Origin: Candidatus Krumholzibacteriia bacterium
GTDB lineage: Bacteria > Krumholzibacteriota > Krumholzibacteriia > LZORAL124-64-63
Assembly (NCBI GenBank): GCA_024762975.1
Contig: JANTGJ010000006.1
Coordinates: forward strand, 1 to 55,326
DNA: 55,326 nt
Reading direction: 5' to 3'
Positions 7,171 to 54,160 of the stretch are shown here, piece after piece; position 1 is the stretch's first letter; the number at the start of each line of letters is the position of its first letter. The notes under the pieces were generated by a model. That model was not told where the DNA came from, did no database searches, and saw only the letters and a program-made list of their open reading frames with translations. Both the position numbers and the translations under genes were made by a program.

Positions 7171-8103
7171 TTATTCGGAATCGTGTTTGCGGGCCAACCA
7201 GAAACGCTCGGCCGGATCGATACCGCATCGGCTCAACTCGGTAGGGCTCAAGGTCTCGCGAGCGATGAATTCACTGACCTCCCAGCCATCCCGCTCGATC
7301 AGGGTTCTGAAGTCCGGTGCGAATTGCCAGGCGTGGGCATGGGCTCGATGGGGATCAATCTCGATGCGGCGACTGTGGGCCAGGCCCAGTTCGAAGGGCA
7401 CCTGGATCCAGGCCAGCCCGCCCGGCTTGAGCATGCGCAGGATCTCGTTCACACACACATCCAACTCGCGAATGTGCTCCAGCACATGGCTGCAAAAAAC
7501 CCAATCGAACGTTCCGCTGCGAAATGGGCTGCGGCGGAGGTCGGAAACAAAATCGGGTGCGAAGCGGTCATCCGACGCAGCGACGTCGGTGCGAAAACAA
7601 CGCGCCAGCCCTTCGTGCTCCAGATGAAAACGAAGTGCCGTGGACAGCGAGTAGCCCAGAATCACGCGAGGTCCCGCCTGGGATCCGCGGCGTTCTTTCA
7701 ATTCGTCGCGCACCCCCAGCACCAGTTGCCGGTGCCGGTCGAAAGATCCGCAACCCGGGCAGATACAACCGGGAATCACCTCGTCGGCGGAAAGAAAGGT
7801 GCGAAAAGCACGCCCACGCCAACCGCAAACCGGACATTCGCGGGAGCCGCCGGGGGCGATCTTCTCCAGCGCCGGCAGCACCAGATTGCCCACCGCACCG
7901 ACGACTACGCGACCGGCCATCAGCGGATGTTTCCACAGACAGGCCGGCGAACGAGGCTCCAGCAGGGTATCGCGTACAAAACCGAGGGCAGACAAGATTC
8001 CTCCCGGGGCACCGAATACCCGGGCCCAGGTCGATTGAAATGGGTACTTGTTTTCCGGTCGATCCGGAGACTGCAAGAATAGCAAGATGGCGAACACCTG
8101 CAA
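7171..8103 (-). CDS. Zinc-ribbon class I SAM-dependent methyltransferase
   Basis: Up to 310 residues. A four-Cys zinc ribbon (CPVCGWRGRAFR followed about 20 residues later by CPGCGSFDRHR) precedes a methyltransferase fold. Recognisable elements are FRTDVAASDD, FDWVFCSHVLEHIREL (motif II region) and MLKPGGLAWIQVP. The combination is seen in methyltransferases of surface-polysaccharide and lipid loci; the substrate is unknown. The glycine-rich SAM loop is weak (VILGYSLSTALRFHLE). The start is uncertain. The longest frame begins at TTG 8103 without a good ribosome site. ATG 7920, which has GGAAA upstream, would give a 249-residue protein that keeps both domains. It lies between the barrel gene and the HDOD gene in one apparent transcript. 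Confidence 0.75.
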   Translation of the reverse strand: MQVFAILLFLQSPDRPENKYPFQSTWARVFGAPGGILSALGFVRDTLLEPRSPACLWKHPLMAGRVVVGAVGNLVLPALEKIAPGGSRECPVCGWRGRAFRTFLSADEVIPGCICPGCGSFDRHRQLVLGVRDELKERRGSQAGPRVILGYSLSTALRFHLEHEGLARCFRTDVAASDDRFAPDFVSDLRRSPFRSGTFDWVFCSHVLEHIRELDVCVNEILRMLKPGGLAWIQVPFELGLAHSRRIEIDPHRAHAHAWQFAPDFRTLIERDGWEVSEFIARETLSPTELSRCGIDPAERFWLARKHDSE

Positions 8104-46497: not shown

Positions 46498-46526
46498 AGT
46501 ATATCACAAGCGGGAAGAAGGGTCAA
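46498..46526 (-). promoter_or_regulatory. Strong promoter producing a leaderless exonuclease mRNA
   Basis: On the minus strand, TTGACC (46521-46526), 17 bp and TATACT (46498-46503). The ATG begins 7 nt after the -10, so transcription should start at or next to it. The -35 overlaps the stop codon of the upstream gene at 46523. Confidence 0.7.
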
Positions 46527-47395
46527 TTGGTCCGGTTCATGGGTCCGGTTCCTCGCTGCAGGAGAACCGGTTGTGCTCCCGAGCCGTACGCCACCAACTC
46601 CATCTTTTCGACACGGATCCTCGGCGGTGGCAGCTTCATTCGGCGCTGCGGAGGATCGAGGCGCGACTCGGCATGCTGGCGCTCCGAAACAAAAGCCAGG
46701 CCCAGGAAGGGGATCTCGGAATTGACGGCGGCGACGACCTCCCAGGTCGAAGTCTGGATCACCTCACCCGCCGGTAGGCGCGCAACCTGCGTGTCGGCGG
46801 CCGCGAGGGTGAACTGATCGCACAACAACTGGTGCCCCTGAACGACCCGCGTCGTCGGGGTACCGATATCGACACGGTCCGGAACGAATTCGTCCGATAG
46901 CGAAGCGGCGATCAGCGGATCCTCCTGCAATTGTTCAGGTGAGATCTTCTCGGGAACCCCGTCCCGCCACTGCTCGATTTCCAGAACATAGTCCAACAGG
47001 GCGCCTTCGCGCTTGAGTAGGTCACGCGAGATCCGCAGGCGCGTACCCTGTCCCGCCTGGGGAACCATCGTACCGTCCTGCATTTCGTCCAGATACAGCA
47101 ATTCGATCATCCAGGCCTGGTCGTCCGTCCCGCCGTTGCGGTCCAGGCATACGACCCGTACGATCCCGGATTCCCGCCGCCCCCCGCTCATGACCTGCGT
47201 GCTGTAGTCGGCCCAGGCTCCCTCGATCATCTGCAGGGGGATCTGCGGCTGGCGCCACAGCGTAAAGAGGTCCAGCGCTCCGGCGGTCGATGCCGGCAAC
47301 AGCAGACAGAGAATCGCCAGGAACCGGAAGATGCCCCGGATAGCGACCGGGCCCGAACTGGTCGGGCCCGTGGAGAATCTGGATCGCTTGCCCAT
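46523..47395 (-). CDS. Secreted protein encoded after the metallophosphatase-cytochrome gene
   Basis: 290 residues. A signal peptide begins after a basic N-terminus (FRFLAILCLLLPASTAGALD). The mature part is beta-rich with no recognised motif: GAWADYSTQVMSGG, TRLRISRDLLKREGALLDYV and ADTQVARLPAGEVIQTSTWE. The strand order is slightly LolA-like (a sheet meant to carry a hydrophobic partner), but that is weak. ATG 47395 lies two bases after the cytochrome stop (TGATATG), which points to translational coupling and a role with the cytochrome in the periplasm. No heme or metal motif of its own. Function unknown. Confidence 0.8.
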   Translation of the reverse strand: MGKRSRFSTGPTSSGPVAIRGIFRFLAILCLLLPASTAGALDLFTLWRQPQIPLQMIEGAWADYSTQVMSGGRRESGIVRVVCLDRNGGTDDQAWMIELLYLDEMQDGTMVPQAGQGTRLRISRDLLKREGALLDYVLEIEQWRDGVPEKISPEQLQEDPLIAASLSDEFVPDRVDIGTPTTRVVQGHQLLCDQFTLAAADTQVARLPAGEVIQTSTWEVVAAVNSEIPFLGLAFVSERQHAESRLDPPQRRMKLPPPRIRVEKMELVAYGSGAQPVLLQRGTGPMNRTN

Positions 47396-47396
47396 A

Positions 47397-48767
47397 TCAG
47401 TGTTTGATCTTCTCCCAATACGTCGCGTAGTCGAAGTCCGGACTGTTTTCCTTGTCGTGACAGATCACGCAGGAGTCCTTGGCCTGCTGCGCCCACTTTC
47501 CGTCGCGGTTGTGCTCGGTACCGTACCCGTGGCACGCCTCGCACTGCACGTTGATCAGATAGTTGAAGGGGCGTTCGTCGGCATACCCATTCTTGTACCG
47601 ATAGCCCGTTGTATGACAGGACAAGCACTCGGGCTCGTTCTGCTGGCCCTTGTTGCGCAGGGTCGCGAAGGCTTTGCGATGTGCGGACTGCGCGTAGACC
47701 TGCCAGGCATCCTCGTGGCACCCCATGCAGGACCGGTCGACCAGGAAGCTCTCCTTGTCCGAGCCCAGATCGCGCGGGAAAGCTGCCCGCTTGGCCTGCT
47801 GGAACTCCTGAAGATCCTTCTTGAACTTCGCCACGCGGGCCAGGACTTCCTCGGACTCGTCCTTGCTGCCGTCCATGTCGACGATCTCGATATCGAAAGC
47901 CATCAACTGGCCGTCACCGTCGTCCACGAACAGGTCGGCCTTGCCGATGAACTGGCCCTCGCGGGTCGCACACATCAGTGCGGAGTCCTCGATGATCCGC
48001 TCGGTGTTCAGGCTGCGGAAGGAATGCCCGATCACGCACATGTCGATACCCTTGACCTCTTTTACCAGCTCCTCGGCGTTGCGGTCGCCGACGTGGGCCA
48101 GCAGTAGGATGGTGTCGGCCTCCTCGCGTACCCTCGGTACGAGCTCACGCAGGACCGTGACCGGATCGTTGACCTCGAGTTCGGGGTCCTTGGCCGCCAT
48201 CGTCACGATCTTGTACAGCGGATCCAGCACGCTGATGATTCCGAAGCGAATGCCGTTCTTTTCGACGATGAGGTATTCGGGCAGGATCAACTCACCGGTC
48301 GCCAGATCACGTACGTTCGCATTGGTGAACGGCAGCCCGTTTTCATCGATCATTTTGCGCAGGAAGTCCAAACCGTAGTTCAGGTCCATCTCGCCCAACC
48401 CGATCGCATCGACACCGAAATCTCCGCACACATCGCACAGGAATTCTGCCTGGAAGCGGTCGTTCTTGTTGCGACGGCCGAACATGTCGCCCGCATCGAC
48501 CTGAAGTACCGGCTTGTCCTCGTTCCACAGACTATCCAATAAGGCGGCCCTCCGGGCCAACCCGCCACGCTGCTTGGACTTTCAGCCACAGGGCTCGATC
48601 TTACCCTTGACGTCGGTGGTATAGATGAGCGTGATGTTTTTCCAATTGCCACCTTTGGCCCAGGTCGAACGCAGGTTCGTTCCCAGCGCCACGGCAACGA
48701 CCAGAACGCACAGACACGCCAACAGCAGGCTGCGCTTCCAGGTCGCCTCGTTCTTGATTCGAGTCAT
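47397..48767 (-). CDS. Metallophosphatase-tetraheme cytochrome c, probable selenoprotein with in-frame TGA
   Basis: 456 residues if TGA 48582-48584 is read as selenocysteine (residue 62). A membrane anchor or signal peptide (LLLACLCVLVVAVALGTNL) leads to ITLIYTTDVKGKIEPCG, then the TGA, then KSKQRGGLARRAALLDSL in the same frame. From memory, related metallophosphatase-like proteins have E-P-C-G-C-x(4-6)-GGLARRA here, so the TGA replaces the second Cys. Calcineurin-like elements follow (VDAGDMF, GLGEMDLNYG, LLLAHVGDRNAEEL, VIGHS). The C-terminus has four heme motifs: CMGCH (347), CLSCH (381), CEACH (409) and CVICH (433), with extra His residues as in c554-type cytochromes. Periplasmic, membrane-tethered. 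Without recoding it would end at 61 residues. Promoter at 48898-48926. Confidence 0.88.
48543..48566 (-). promoter_or_regulatory. SECIS-like hairpin downstream of the in-frame TGA
   Basis: On the minus strand, GGC-[GGGTT]-GGCCC-GGA-GGGCC-GCC folds as a short stem with a bulge that includes two U residues and a 3-nt apical loop starting with G. The loop begins 28 nt after the TGA. A bulged U, an early loop G and a spacing of about 16-37 nt are expected of bacterial SECIS elements read by SelB. Confidence 0.6.
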
Positions 48768-49000: not shown

Positions 49001-49294
49001 TTACTTGGTAACTCGTTCCTTCAGGCTCTTGCCCGCGACGAAGGCCGGGTACTTGGCAGCGGGAATGATCAGGCTCTGGCCCGTCTGCGGATTGCGGCCC
49101 GTCCTCTTCTTGCGATTCCGGCGTTCGAACGTGCCGAAGCCGGTGATCTGAACACGGTCGCCCTTGGCTACGGCCGTGGCGATGATTCCTTCCCGAGGAG
49201 CAGTCGAAAAAAGAGCGTCCACCGCGCGCTTCGCAGCAGCCTTGCTCAACCCGGTCTTCGAGGCCAGTTTTTCGGTGAGTTCGGTTTTGTTCAT
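49001..49294 (-). CDS. hup: HU-family DNA-binding protein
   Basis: 97 residues. A nucleoid protein that bends DNA as a dimer. MNKTELTEKLASKTGLSKAA forms the helical base. The strand-arm region shows ITGFGTFERRNRKKRTGRNP, with the conserved G-F-G-x-F and the R-N-P intercalating proline, then AAKYPAFVAGKSLKERV. Length and motif order are standard for HU rather than IHF. The ATG at 49294 has AAAGGAGGTG upstream, the best ribosome site here, and the 17-codon upstream extension is discarded. Own promoter and terminator. Confidence 0.97.
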   Translation of the reverse strand: MNKTELTEKLASKTGLSKAAAKRAVDALFSTAPREGIIATAVAKGDRVQITGFGTFERRNRKKRTGRNPQTGQSLIIPAAKYPAFVAGKSLKERVTK

Positions 49295-49315
49295 GACCCA
49301 CCTCCTTTCGGGGAC

Positions 49316-49345
49316 ATCAAACCTTCCCCCTGACAAACCTGTCAA
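49316..49345 (-). promoter_or_regulatory. Predicted HU promoter
   Basis: On the minus strand, consensus TTGACA (49340-49345), 18 bp and TTTGAT (49316-49321), with a leader of about 15 nt that holds the ribosome site. Confidence 0.5.
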
Positions 49346-49397: not shown

Positions 49398-52300
49398 TCA
49401 GAAGCCCTGCATGCTACCGGCCAGCGAGCCCATCGAATCCTCCCGGCCGCGCGTGAACTTCAGAGCCGGAATCGACTTCAGATAGACGCGGAAACCGAAA
49501 TCGGATTGGACCGAGCTGATCGTCCGGTTGAACTCCAGCCGCCAGCAGTGCAGGTCCCGATTGAGACTGAACTGCTGACGGGTGGCGGTGCTCGCGACCA
49601 GGTCGAATTGAGTCGTGTATCGGAACTCCCACTTCTGGGTCAGATTGGCCTGCACCGTAAGGCCACCGGTTGCCCGGTGCCGATTCTCCTGGGTACTCGA
49701 GTAGCCATAGTTCAACGAAGGCCGAATCTCGAAGGGCAGGAAACGCCCGCCCTCGGTCTTGTCGCCGCCGCCGCCCGAATGATCACGTAGTCGATCCTGG
49801 AGGCCCGCACCGTTGGCCTGCTCATCGCCATAGAAATCGTCCTGAGAATCATCGAAGAACGGGTCCGGGGCAACCCCGTCGGCGCCCAGATCCGCCACCG
49901 CCGCATTCAACGTGTCGGCATCCGTTTCGCCCGGTAGCGGGCCCAACCGTTCGATCGCCGTATTTCGTTTTACCTCTTGAAGTTCCGCAACCTCGCCGAC
50001 GTCCAGCCGCCCGCGCAGATTGAAATTCAGATTGTAGGTGAATCGAGTGGAAATCAGGCTCAGCGTTTTGGGATCGATGACATTGCGAACCGTCAGTTTC
50101 AGATACCGGTTCTGACCGGGCTTGAGAGTCAGACTGCTGTTGATGTCCGACCAGCGCTCACCTTCATCGGCCCGCGGGTTATAACTCGTACCCAGGGACC
50201 AGTCCAGGAATCCGTCCAACTTCTTCGTGGTCTCGGTGGTGTCGTTCTCCATCGTGACATACTTCGCATCGAAGCGGTTGCCGAGATCGAAGCTGAATCG
50301 GGACGAGGGCGCCCGCCCGTTCAGTCCGACGGTCTGACTCCAACCGGTCTTGAAATTCAAGGTATGCCGAATCGCGCGCAGTCTACCCACCGGTGTCGGA
50401 AAGAGACCGTACAAAGTGGTGTTCACGCTGCCACCGAAACCGGCCGCCGGAGTCGTGTCCTCGGTCCACTCGTCGAGGTCCTCGAAGTAGCCGTCGGTCG
50501 TGTCGGTGCCCGCTACCCACGACTGGCCGGTCAACTCGTTTCGCTCCCAGGCCTGGCTCGCGTTGGCGTTGAACGAAAAGTTGAAAATGCCCACTCTCGG
50601 CGGCCGCAGGGTCAGCCCCCAGCGCCCCGATGCCCGTGTATCGGTCGCCGTGGTCAGTTCACGGGATTCCTTGTCCTGCTGGAAAGTGTAATCGTGCTTG
50701 AAATAGGTATTGCGCAACAGATCGCCGACGAAGCTGCCCTGCTGTCCCGGCCGCAGGGCCGGCGCCAGCGTGAACTGGCGGAAATTCAACGACAGACTCG
50801 GCAGGGTCATGTCGCTCAGCATCTCGTTGGTGGCCGGATCGTCATCCTCGGCGTTGGCGCGTTCCTCGCGTTTGAAATTGAGGTTGGCAGTGACCCGGTC
50901 GAAGTTGCGGCTGATGTAGAACGTCGACGTGCGCTGACCGGAAATGATGTCACGTCTCGATGACTGCGCCAGATCGTCGCTGGTCAGTTTGGCGCTGGCC
51001 AGTTTGACGTTCGCCTTGAAGCTGTAGTCGTCCATGAGATGTGGCTGACTGTGTCGCCACTGCAACTGCCACTGACGCACGTCGTCGCCGCCCAGCCCGT
51101 TGCGCCACGAGTAGTCCAGACCGCCGTTCATCGTATATCGCTTCACATAGCGATTCTGCACCCGAAACGAAATATCCCGGTGCTCATTGTAGTCGCCCTC
51201 GACCAGGAAATCGGTGTAGTCGTTCGTGGCCCAGTAGTATCCGAAATCCCGGATGTAGCGCCCCTCGCGCGAACTGAAACCGAAGTCGAAACTCGGAAAG
51301 AGAATGCCGGAGCGGCGCCCCTCCTTCAGGTTCCGGAAGAAGAAAGGCAACGCGAAGATCGGCACCTCGCCCACCCGCAGGACGATCGGCGCGGCTACGA
51401 TCTTGTCCTGCATGCGGATCTTCATCTTCTCCGACCAGAAGTGGTAGTGCGGTTTCTCCAGGTCGCACGAGGTCATCCGGCCGCTGCAGATCTTCATTGT
51501 CGTATCGGGGAAGCGGCGGATCTCGTCCCCGCTGTAGTAGTAGTCGTCGAAAGCGGTGACTCCGCCCTCGACCGCACCGGTTTTGGCTCCGAAGTTGTAG
51601 CCCATCGTCTCGCCCGCGATCAGATCGCTGTCCTCGACCAGCGGATCGCCCTCGGCGTAGAGTTCCCGCCGGTCGGTATCCATCTTGATGTGCTCGGCCG
51701 TCAACGTCATGGTGCCGTATACGAGCTTGCCCTGTTGATCGATGTCGATGGCGCGGTCCTGCATCTCGAAGATCAGCTTACCGCCCGCGTAGTCCACGTC
51801 CTGTGCCGAACCCGAAAAATCCAGGCCGCCCGAAACGGCCGAATCCGGAACAGCCGCGAACCAGGTGTCGTCCACAGACTCCGCCAGCGAGTCGGGTAGC
51901 AACACGGCCAGGGTATCGTTCGGGGAGGCCAACGAGTCCGGCCGGGCATCTGCTCGCCGACGATGCCGCCCGGCCCGCATCTCCATGTCGAGAACTTTCG
52001 CGAAACGGTAGGTACCGACGACCTGTCCATGGACCGTGACCCGGTCCACTCTTCCCCGCCGGAAATCGATGACGATCGTATCGCCGGTCACATCGTTCGT
52101 CGCAACCTCGCCTTCGAGGTCCAGGGGTGTGTAGATGCTGTGCGCATTACCGACCACGACGCTGCGGCGGACGACGTTGTCGTCGAAATCGACGGTGATC
52201 GAGTCACCTTCGAGTACATCCATCGAGGGCAGGCCACGATAGACGGCGGCAAGCGAATCCGGCGACATGTCCTCCATGCGGGCCGCGCCGACCAGGACCA

Positions 52301-53207
52301 TCTGCCGCAGCTTCCCGTCCGAATACCGGAAATCGATGTTGTCGCCGTACAGCAGGCTGGCGCCTCCCATACTGACCCTTGGTGAGCCGCTCAGGACCAG
52401 TCGTTCCCTACCGTAGGCAACCGCCGTATCGGCCCAGGCTCGGGTCTGATCGTGATGGATGCGAACGGAGTCCACCATCACCACGCGGTCTTCCTGCCGG
52501 TAGAAACGCATCAACAGGGAACGCGCCGTCAGCGGCCCGCCACCTTGTTGCCGACTGGTCAAATAGGGATCTCGATCGATGATGGCGACTTCGCCCTGCG
52601 CCTGGAATTTCGCGTGTTCGCCCGTGACCAGGCTGTTGGTTCCCGGTTGCATGATCCGTACGTGGCCGAACGCCTCGCCCTCTCCCGTCAGACGATCGCG
52701 AAACACGGTGTCCGCCAGTACGGAATACTCCGGCGAGACCAGCAGGGCATCTTCCATGATGCGGAGCCAGCGCCCATCACCCCGGGACTCGCCTCGCTCT
52801 CCGGTTGCCGTTACCTGGCCATCGACGACACGCACATCACCGAAGAAATCGCCCGCCCCTTCGGCCATGTGGTAGACCGCTCGCCGGCAGTTCAGCACAC
52901 CGGTCTGCTGCTGCACCTCGACTTTGCCGAGCAATTCGTAGACGCCGCGGGTGCGGTAATAGATCGCCGTATCGCAGGTGGCCACCAGACTGTCACGATC
53001 GATGACGACATTACCGTAGCCGTAGGCTACGCGCTCACCTTCGACCACGCGCTCGACGAAGCGGTCGGATTCGATCAGCGAGGCGCGGCGGCCCTGGGCC
53101 ATCGCATCGCTGCCCGGCCAAGCCAGGACACACACCCCGACCCACGGCACGATCACGACACCGAGAAATGCCAGCAGACGATGGAAGCTGCGCGCAGGAG
53201 GTCTCAA
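49398..53207 (-). CDS. lptD: LPS-assembly outer-membrane protein LptD/OstA
   Basis: 1269 residues, well above the usual 750-900. A signal peptide (LLAFLGVVIVPWVGVCVLAW) precedes repeated OstA-type beta-jellyroll units of the D-x-x-x-x-x-G-x-V/A form (YGYGNVVIDRDSLVATCDTA, LLGKVEVQQQ, EAFGHVRIMQPGT), an expanded N-terminal array running to about residue 590. The LptD core follows: KICSGRMTSCDLEKPHYHFW, with Cys residues that typically form inter-domain disulfides, then PIVLRVGEVPIFALPFFFRN and a barrel ending in Phe (SMQGF), the usual assembly signal. TTG 53207 overlaps the ROK stop (TTGA) and has AGAGG five nucleotides upstream, which fixes the start. It forms an operon with ROK and folC. Confidence 0.92.
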   Translation of the reverse strand: MRPPARSFHRLLAFLGVVIVPWVGVCVLAWPGSDAMAQGRRASLIESDRFVERVVEGERVAYGYGNVVIDRDSLVATCDTAIYYRTRGVYELLGKVEVQQQTGVLNCRRAVYHMAEGAGDFFGDVRVVDGQVTATGERGESRGDGRWLRIMEDALLVSPEYSVLADTVFRDRLTGEGEAFGHVRIMQPGTNSLVTGEHAKFQAQGEVAIIDRDPYLTSRQQGGGPLTARSLLMRFYRQEDRVVMVDSVRIHHDQTRAWADTAVAYGRERLVLSGSPRVSMGGASLLYGDNIDFRYSDGKLRQMVLVGAARMEDMSPDSLAAVYRGLPSMDVLEGDSITVDFDDNVVRRSVVVGNAHSIYTPLDLEGEVATNDVTGDTIVIDFRRGRVDRVTVHGQVVGTYRFAKVLDMEMRAGRHRRRADARPDSLASPNDTLAVLLPDSLAESVDDTWFAAVPDSAVSGGLDFSGSAQDVDYAGGKLIFEMQDRAIDIDQQGKLVYGTMTLTAEHIKMDTDRRELYAEGDPLVEDSDLIAGETMGYNFGAKTGAVEGGVTAFDDYYYSGDEIRRFPDTTMKICSGRMTSCDLEKPHYHFWSEKMKIRMQDKIVAAPIVLRVGEVPIFALPFFFRNLKEGRRSGILFPSFDFGFSSREGRYIRDFGYYWATNDYTDFLVEGDYNEHRDISFRVQNRYVKRYTMNGGLDYSWRNGLGGDDVRQWQLQWRHSQPHLMDDYSFKANVKLASAKLTSDDLAQSSRRDIISGQRTSTFYISRNFDRVTANLNFKREERANAEDDDPATNEMLSDMTLPSLSLNFRQFTLAPALRPGQQGSFVGDLLRNTYFKHDYTFQQDKESRELTTATDTRASGRWGLTLRPPRVGIFNFSFNANASQAWERNELTGQSWVAGTDTTDGYFEDLDEWTEDTTPAAGFGGSVNTTLYGLFPTPVGRLRAIRHTLNFKTGWSQTVGLNGRAPSSRFSFDLGNRFDAKYVTMENDTTETTKKLDGFLDWSLGTSYNPRADEGERWSDINSSLTLKPGQNRYLKLTVRNVIDPKTLSLISTRFTYNLNFNLRGRLDVGEVAELQEVKRNTAIERLGPLPGETDADTLNAAVADLGADGVAPDPFFDDSQDDFYGDEQANGAGLQDRLRDHSGGGGDKTEGGRFLPFEIRPSLNYGYSSTQENRHRATGGLTVQANLTQKWEFRYTTQFDLVASTATRQQFSLNRDLHCWRLEFNRTISSVQSDFGFRVYLKSIPALKFTRGREDSMGSLAGSMQGF

Positions 53208-54160
53208 TCGATCCTCTCCACTTCGCGCGCCAACCAGGCGGCACCGACGGCTGCCGCGTGGGGACCCAGTTCCGCCAAAACGATGGGGACCTGCCGGGCG
53301 GCGCGAGCCAGGATCTGACCGACTGCCTGTTCGCGGCAGACTTCCAGGAACAGACCCGCCGCGGCGGCCAGTCCTCCGCCGATGATCACACGATCGGGAT
53401 TCAACACGTTGACGAGGTTGCCGACGGCTTGTCCGAGGCGCCGCCCGACTTCGTGATACAGCGCCACGGCGGTCGGATCGCCCTGTGCAGCGAGCTCCGA
53501 CAGATGCCGGGGAGTCAGTGCTTCGGCCTGCTCGGTGACGAGGCGCCGAAAGGCGTCGGTCGCCGCTTCCCCAGCGGCCCGCTCCCGGGCGGCCCGCACC
53601 ACGCCGCGCGCACCGGCCCAGGCCTCGAGACAGCCCAGATTGCCGCAGGGACAAGGCGGCCCCTCCAGATCCAGAACCATGTGGCCGATTTCTCCCGCAC
53701 CGCAGTCGGCACCGATGACCAGGTGTCCATCCTGCAGGATGCCGCCACCGACTCCCGTACCCAACGCCAGCATGACCAGACTGTCGGCACCGCGGCCGGC
53801 CCCGGATCGATACTCGCCGTACAGCGCACCGTTGACATCGTTGGCCACCGCGACGGGCAGTCCGTCAAACACGGCGCCAATGGCCCCGGTCAGATCCGAA
53901 TCCTCCCAGCCCGGCAGGTTCGGAGCCCTTCCGAGGGTACCGGCCTGGGGATCGACGATCCCGGCACAGGCCAGCCCGACGCCCTGCAGGGCCGAACGCC
54001 ACGGGGCGACAGCGTGTCCCAGACGTTCGATGGTTTCGGCCGTGCTCTGGGGATCGGTCGCCACCTCGCCCTGTCGCTGGATCTCGCCGCGCGAATCCGT
54101 CAGAACATACTTCAGCGCGGTTCCCCCCACATCGGCACCGAGATAGAGCTGGCTGCTCAC
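53204..54160 (-). CDS. ROK-family sugar kinase (glucokinase-like)
   Basis: 318 residues. The ATP-binding start YLGADVGGTALKYVLTD, substrate region LACAGIVDPQAGTLGRAPNL and VANDVNGALYGEYRSGAGRG, and LALGTGVGGGIL are typical of ROK kinases. The zinc motif is intact: GEIGHM then PCPCGNLGCLEAWAG, followed by RVIIGGGLA. There is no N-terminal helix-turn-helix, so it is an enzyme and not a repressor. Glucose is the likeliest substrate, but N-acetylmannosamine or other hexoses are possible. GTG 54160 is chosen because AAGGAG lies five nucleotides before it; an overlapping GTG at 54166 is poorly placed. Confidence 0.9.
   Translation of the reverse strand: MSSQLYLGADVGGTALKYVLTDSRGEIQRQGEVATDPQSTAETIERLGHAVAPWRSALQGVGLACAGIVDPQAGTLGRAPNLPGWEDSDLTGAIGAVFDGLPVAVANDVNGALYGEYRSGAGRGADSLVMLALGTGVGGGILQDGHLVIGADCGAGEIGHMVLDLEGPPCPCGNLGCLEAWAGARGVVRAARERAAGEAATDAFRRLVTEQAEALTPRHLSELAAQGDPTAVALYHEVGRRLGQAVGNLVNVLNPDRVIIGGGLAAAAGLFLEVCREQAVGQILARAARQVPIVLAELGPHAAAVGAAWLAREVERID

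Follow-up and report, generated by a model that had tools for sequence, protein, structure and literature searches.

A gene in a 55,326-nucleotide stretch of DNA from a Candidatus Krumholzibacteriia bacterium (the whole stretch analysed, hereafter the window) carries an in-frame TGA upstream of four haem-binding motifs, which raises the questions of whether this codon is read as selenocysteine (Sec) and of what a protein combining Sec, a phosphatase fold and a tetrahaem domain might do. On the minus strand, the frame starts at an ATG (48767-48765) and stops at a TGA (47399-47397), encoding a product of 456 residues (47397..48767) which, on the basis of the NCBIfam model NF041198, Pfam and AlphaFold2, was classified as a UshA-like (seleno)protein with a C-terminal tetrahaem domain. 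When TGA is translated as U, the sequence reads MTRIKNEATWKRSLLLACLCVLVVAVALG... IEPCG-TGA-KSKQRGGLARRA..., codon 62 being the TGA at 48584-48582. The read-through product comprises, in this order, a hydrophobic N-terminal helix, a metallophosphatase-related domain and, at the C-terminus, a domain containing four CxxCH motifs. The helix (residues 6-37; 48657..48752, minus strand), recognized in the sequence and in the AlphaFold2 model, would be a signal anchor or a signal peptide. A preliminary description of this locus had reported an in-frame TGA at 48582-48584 in a tetraheme-cytochrome gene, and our reading of the frame and of the four motifs agrees with it; its "387-residue continuation" is right for the open reading frame counted from the first TTG past the TGA, while 394 residues follow the TGA itself.

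We explored the conservation of this codon (48582..48584, minus strand, within P-C-G-U) in related genomes. When the 80 genomes of the phylum were searched, a TGA-containing match to the UshA-like family was listed for 36 of the 38 genomes from the same taxonomic family, and TGA was found at codon 62 in all the copies read at sequence level; the closest relative (JAHOYV010000037.1, L035) showed 74% identity. In more distant relatives, from Nitrospirae, TA06, Armatimonadetes, Planctomycetes and anammox bacteria, this position is TGC or TGT, and the corresponding column of our alignment holds Sec or Cys in 36 out of 36 proteins, with no exception. In line with the earlier statement that related proteins have Cys here, Cys is the residue found in other phyla. 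Conservation of TGA at the same codon in relatives ruled out a sequencing error, and a genome-wide reassignment of UGA was ruled out by the TGA that terminates the same gene. Moreover, the four components of the Sec machinery for which a genome check had been proposed were all found above their cut-offs in the same genome, which is 96% complete: selA (454.7 bits), selB (318.1 bits), selD (358.7 bits) and tRNA-Sec (selC; 68.4 bits, anticodon TCA). An in-frame TGA also occurs close to the start of selD itself (L021, G000:C59:13950-14870), where Sec is usually found (SAG-TGA-AAKLSPGDL), which gives the organism at least one candidate selenoprotein besides the UshA-like one.

Downstream of codon 62, a bacterial SECIS-like hairpin core with an eight-pair stem (48543..48561, minus strand) lies 21-39 nt past the TGA. 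Positions 48561-48554 pair with 48550-48543 around a GGA loop (48551-48553), which is found 29-31 nt past the TGA, within the usual range of bacterial SECIS elements. The core is kept in 25 Sec homologues and in 17 further Sec genes, and the loop of the conserved core is 3 nt long, GG[A/C/T]. In the 25 distinct Sec genes, 92% of the cells of the stem were paired (82% in shuffles) and covariation reached 0.358 (0.183 in shuffles), with none of 500 shuffles scoring as high; sliding the partner strand by 1-3 columns reduced pairing to 29-55%. The compensatory substitutions, which involve column pairs 21-39, 24-36 and 27-33, couple a third codon position with another third codon position, and therefore protein constraint alone is insufficient to explain the covariation. 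Single-sequence folding energy past the UGA was uninformative, most z-scores being between 0.5 and -2.8, and the minimum-energy fold of this gene's sequence taken alone does not contain the conserved hairpin, which only the covariation test brought out; a Rfam scan of the window at gathering cut-offs gave no match. The hairpin that had been described at 48543-48566 is consequently real, conserved and provided with a GG loop, its core spanning 48561-48543, while the bulged U residues attributed to it are not conserved.

These comparisons bear directly on the possibility that UGA 62 is a true stop, or an artefact of a frameshift or a pseudogene, leaving only a 61-residue peptide or a product restarted downstream. 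UGA does terminate this very gene, but the recurrence of TGA at this codon throughout the phylum, the conservation of the protein on both sides of it, the covarying hairpin and the complete Sec machinery make this reading extremely improbable, and from the sequence data we regard it as close to certain that TGA 62 encodes Sec.

The protein had been presented as a new selenoprotein, none of this type having been described, a view that our data contradict, since it belongs to NF041198, "UshA-like (seleno)protein" (UshA_like_PCGU), a family in the literature since 2008. Its score against this model is 276.3 bits, barely above the curated cut-off of 275 (a margin of only 1.3 bits), and the family is divergent in the phylum Krumholzibacteriota. 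The match falls into two stretches, model positions 11-265 and 346-519, the latter corresponding to the haem region (G000:C6:47424-47909); the model therefore already includes the fused architecture as part of the described family. The P-C-G-[UC] motif of the family is present (IEPCGU, residues 57-62), each of the 36 homologues in the alignment hits the model at 1e-10 or better, and with P-C-G-U, the 5'-nucleotidase fold and the C-terminal haem region shared, nothing excludes membership. In contrast, the protein does not belong to NF049981, "UshA-like (seleno)protein family 2", which has a related fold and also comprises selenoproteins: it scored 33.7 bits against a cut-off of 140, and the motif listed for NF049981 is CxxU, whereas that found here is CxU. 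A tblastn search against plasmids returned ordinary nucleotidases only. The UshA-like family was listed in a 2008 GOS study as COG0737, a CxU selenoprotein, and was counted among the few major selenoprotein families that lack a Cys-based redox motif (PMC2398784), and as a CxU selenoprotein in tables published in 2022 (PMC9312934) and 2026 (PMC13188914); in the literature on phosphatase-cytochrome selenoproteins, we found no report naming a function for it. Overall, we consider it very probable that the product of this gene is a genuine selenoprotein and a member of the already known NF041198 family.

Haem-less relatives were also observed. Shorter Sec-containing UshA-like proteins (about 340-370 aa, E-P-C-S-U or E-P-C-G-U) are encoded by genes separate from the tetrahaem form (L080, ~7788-8000, and L081, ~7286-7500, both on the minus strand; L083, ~6781), and those in L080 and L081 adjoin a conserved gene carrying a GLQVEG motif. 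Cys paralogues of about 330 aa (S-C-G-C), likewise haem-less, are found in several genomes of the phylum (L054-L077, for instance L054 and L067).

To what extent the phosphatase-related domain retains phosphatase features was assessed by structure and motif comparison. The AlphaFold2 model (mean pLDDT 88, pTM 0.80) had 5'-nucleotidases as its best PDB matches in Foldseek (E 4.8e-22), and Pfam Metallophos (PF00149) scored just below its cut-off. The protein shares the fold and the order of motifs with UshA and other metallophosphatases (PF00149), but the UshA model itself scored 48.5 bits against a cut-off of 600 and, unlike UshA, the protein has lost the catalytic His and the site-1 ligands and gained Sec and four haem motifs. 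Compared with UshA-type enzymes, D-x-H has become D-V-K, GNHE has become GEMD and GHSH has become GHSF. The catalytic His of GNH(E/D), here M127, is missing in all 36 homologues, only four of which retain the site-1 His. The UshA dimetal ligands, D41, H43, D84, N116, H217, H252 and Q254, form an incomplete set in this protein, where D52, D94, H225 and H248 are kept while K54, E126 and F250 replace H43, N116 and Q254, respectively. The site-2-like residues are present in most of the 25 Sec forms (D94 in 21, E126 in 23, H225 in 22, H248 in 23), some of which have different residues at these positions; the Cys forms have often lost them but retain C62 and the haem motifs. An ordinary 527-residue 5'-nucleotidase paralogue from the same genome (L002) keeps TNDSH, AGD, GNHEFD, TH and GHSH, and the loss of motifs is therefore specific to the UshA-like (seleno)protein family. 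Thus, the term metallophosphatase used in the preliminary description is valid for the fold only, the catalytic His being lost in 36/36 homologues and the site-1 ligands replaced; similarly, the proposed metal site next to Sec may persist as a single-metal site formed by site-2-like ligands, but it is not a conserved theme. Taken together, the domain appears to be a decayed hydrolase that could retain no more than one metal site.

The haem domain, in contrast to the phosphatase ligands, which are not invariant across the 36 homologues, is strictly conserved at its key positions. Its four motifs on the minus strand, CMGCH (residues 347-351, 47715..47729), CLSCH (residues 381-385, 47613..47627), CEACH (residues 409-413, 47529..47543) and CVICH (residues 433-437, 47457..47471), are invariant, together with C60, G61, U/C62, G68, G69, R72, H363, H419 and the C-terminal H456 (47400..47402, minus strand), which from the alignment is a likely distal haem ligand. 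The domain matched Pfam Cytochrome_C554 (PF13435) at 52.7 bits (cut-off 20.8) and, in a phmmer search, cytochrome c554 (PDB 1bvb, 1.3e-6). It contains exactly seven His, the four proximal ones and three others (H363, H419 and H456). If these three act as distal ligands, as in cytochrome c554, they would make three of the haems bis-His and leave the fourth without a second His, its axial site being open or occupied by something other than His. Some of the distant homologues were retrieved with the peptides TYWEKIKH and MGCHEDAW, which biases C-terminal identity, but the alignment members obtained from the phylum-wide search, free of this bias, keep H363, H419 and H456. In the AlphaFold2 model this domain, modelled without haems, had lower confidence (block means 64-90). 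Cytochrome c assembly proteins are encoded in the same genome. The protein thus shares with cytochrome c554 the C-terminal tetrahaem domain and probably a set of three bis-His haems with one haem of another kind; unlike that of cytochrome c554, its haem domain is fused to a phosphatase-fold Sec domain.

In 15 genomes (14 from a sister family and one from another family), the orthologue has P-A-G-U, P-S-G-U or P-Y-G-U (L087-L097 and L099-L102; e.g. L087:5574 and L088:829), the first Cys of C-G-U being gone while Sec and the four haem motifs are kept. The L087 gene, the single one of these loci whose surroundings were read, occupies the same HU-flanked position. Since C60 is lost and Sec kept, the family cannot depend on a selenenylsulfide formed by residues 60 and 62, and these 15 genomes, in which Sec lacks its partner Cys, are the clearest sign against an ordinary C-x-U thiol/selenol pair. 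Judging from these sequences, the fixed feature is Sec (or Cys) at position 62.

Because the phosphatase machinery is lost while Sec and the four haem sites are kept across the phylum, a redox role of the UshA-like tetrahaem protein is the leading hypothesis, and we regard it as fairly probable. The preliminary description had suggested a redox reaction instead of phosphate-ester hydrolysis, and loss of the catalytic His with conservation of the Sec and haem motifs makes this a well-supported prediction. Sec62 might otherwise ligate a metal in the old site 2 (D94, E126, H225 and H248), hydrolysis or lyase chemistry being preserved and the haems serving another purpose. Most Sec forms do keep site-2-like residues, and Sec stands without an adjacent Cys in the 15 genomes, as a lone metal ligand could; however, the equivalent of the catalytic His117 is absent in 36/36 homologues, the site-2 positions hold different residues in some Sec forms, and Cys homologues often lose the site-2 residues yet keep C62 and the haem motifs, which makes a metal-bound Sec62 unlikely.

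Somewhat less likely still is a selenium-dependent relative of SoxB, a thiosulfohydrolase which handles protein-bound persulfide or sulfonate groups; here, such groups would be released by redox chemistry and the electrons passed to the haems. The SoxB model TIGR04486 was among the best sub-threshold matches of our protein (66 bits) and is matched by 28 of the 36 homologues at 1e-10, in keeping with distant sequence similarity within the same superfamily. Nevertheless, 66 bits falls well short of the 550 set as cut-off for SoxB and nucleotidase models score about equally, no sulfur-oxidation genes were identified beside the selenoprotein gene and, unlike SoxB, the protein does not keep the dimetal site. 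We put forward tentatively a more specific form of the redox hypothesis: electron transfer by a selenium-dependent enzyme whose decayed phosphatase fold would hold a single catalytic Sec connected to a tetrahaem module with one reactive haem, a chemistry not known from other selenoenzymes.

The gene neighbourhood suggests a partner for the protein. A gene for a 290-aa secreted protein (46523..47395, minus strand) starts 1 nt past the selenoprotein stop and is probably co-transcribed with it; clustering identified it as a conserved neighbour in eight loci, including one from a Latescibacterota MAG, and a similar-sized gene occupies the same downstream place in more distant families (L082, L085 and L087). 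Its product, which had no Pfam match, is the likeliest partner of the selenoprotein. On the other side, a HU gene (49001-49345) lies between the selenoprotein gene and that of a large LptD/OstA-like outer-membrane protein (49398-53654, minus strand), an order that recurs in several related families, conserved synteny comprising a ROK kinase, the LptD-like protein, HU, the selenoprotein and the secreted protein. The surrounding genes (LptD-like, HU and an exonuclease) do not indicate a redox pathway.

For the redox hypothesis, we propose the following sequence of events. On the evidence of comparative genomics, SelB and tRNA-Sec read UGA 62 as Sec, helped by the hairpin 21-39 nt downstream; the protein would be exported and held by its N-terminal helix at the periplasmic face of the inner membrane. 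Sec62, predicted from the family fold to lie in the loop after strand 1, would face the old active site, so that a substrate would meet it in the former phosphatase pocket. There, a periplasmic compound, which might be a thiol or contain sulfur or another chalcogen, would most likely undergo redox chemistry, with electrons exchanged, in either direction, between the Sec62 domain and the C-terminal cytochrome-c554-like tetrahaem module.

As a selenoprotein discovery this locus adds little, the UshA-like family being already catalogued, but it makes a redox role of the family the leading and a testable hypothesis. It sharpens the neglected question of what phosphatase-fold Sec-tetrahaem proteins do and points to an unstudied redox enzyme. 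The family occurs in almost all of these uncultured bacteria and hence probably takes part in a core process of the periplasm.
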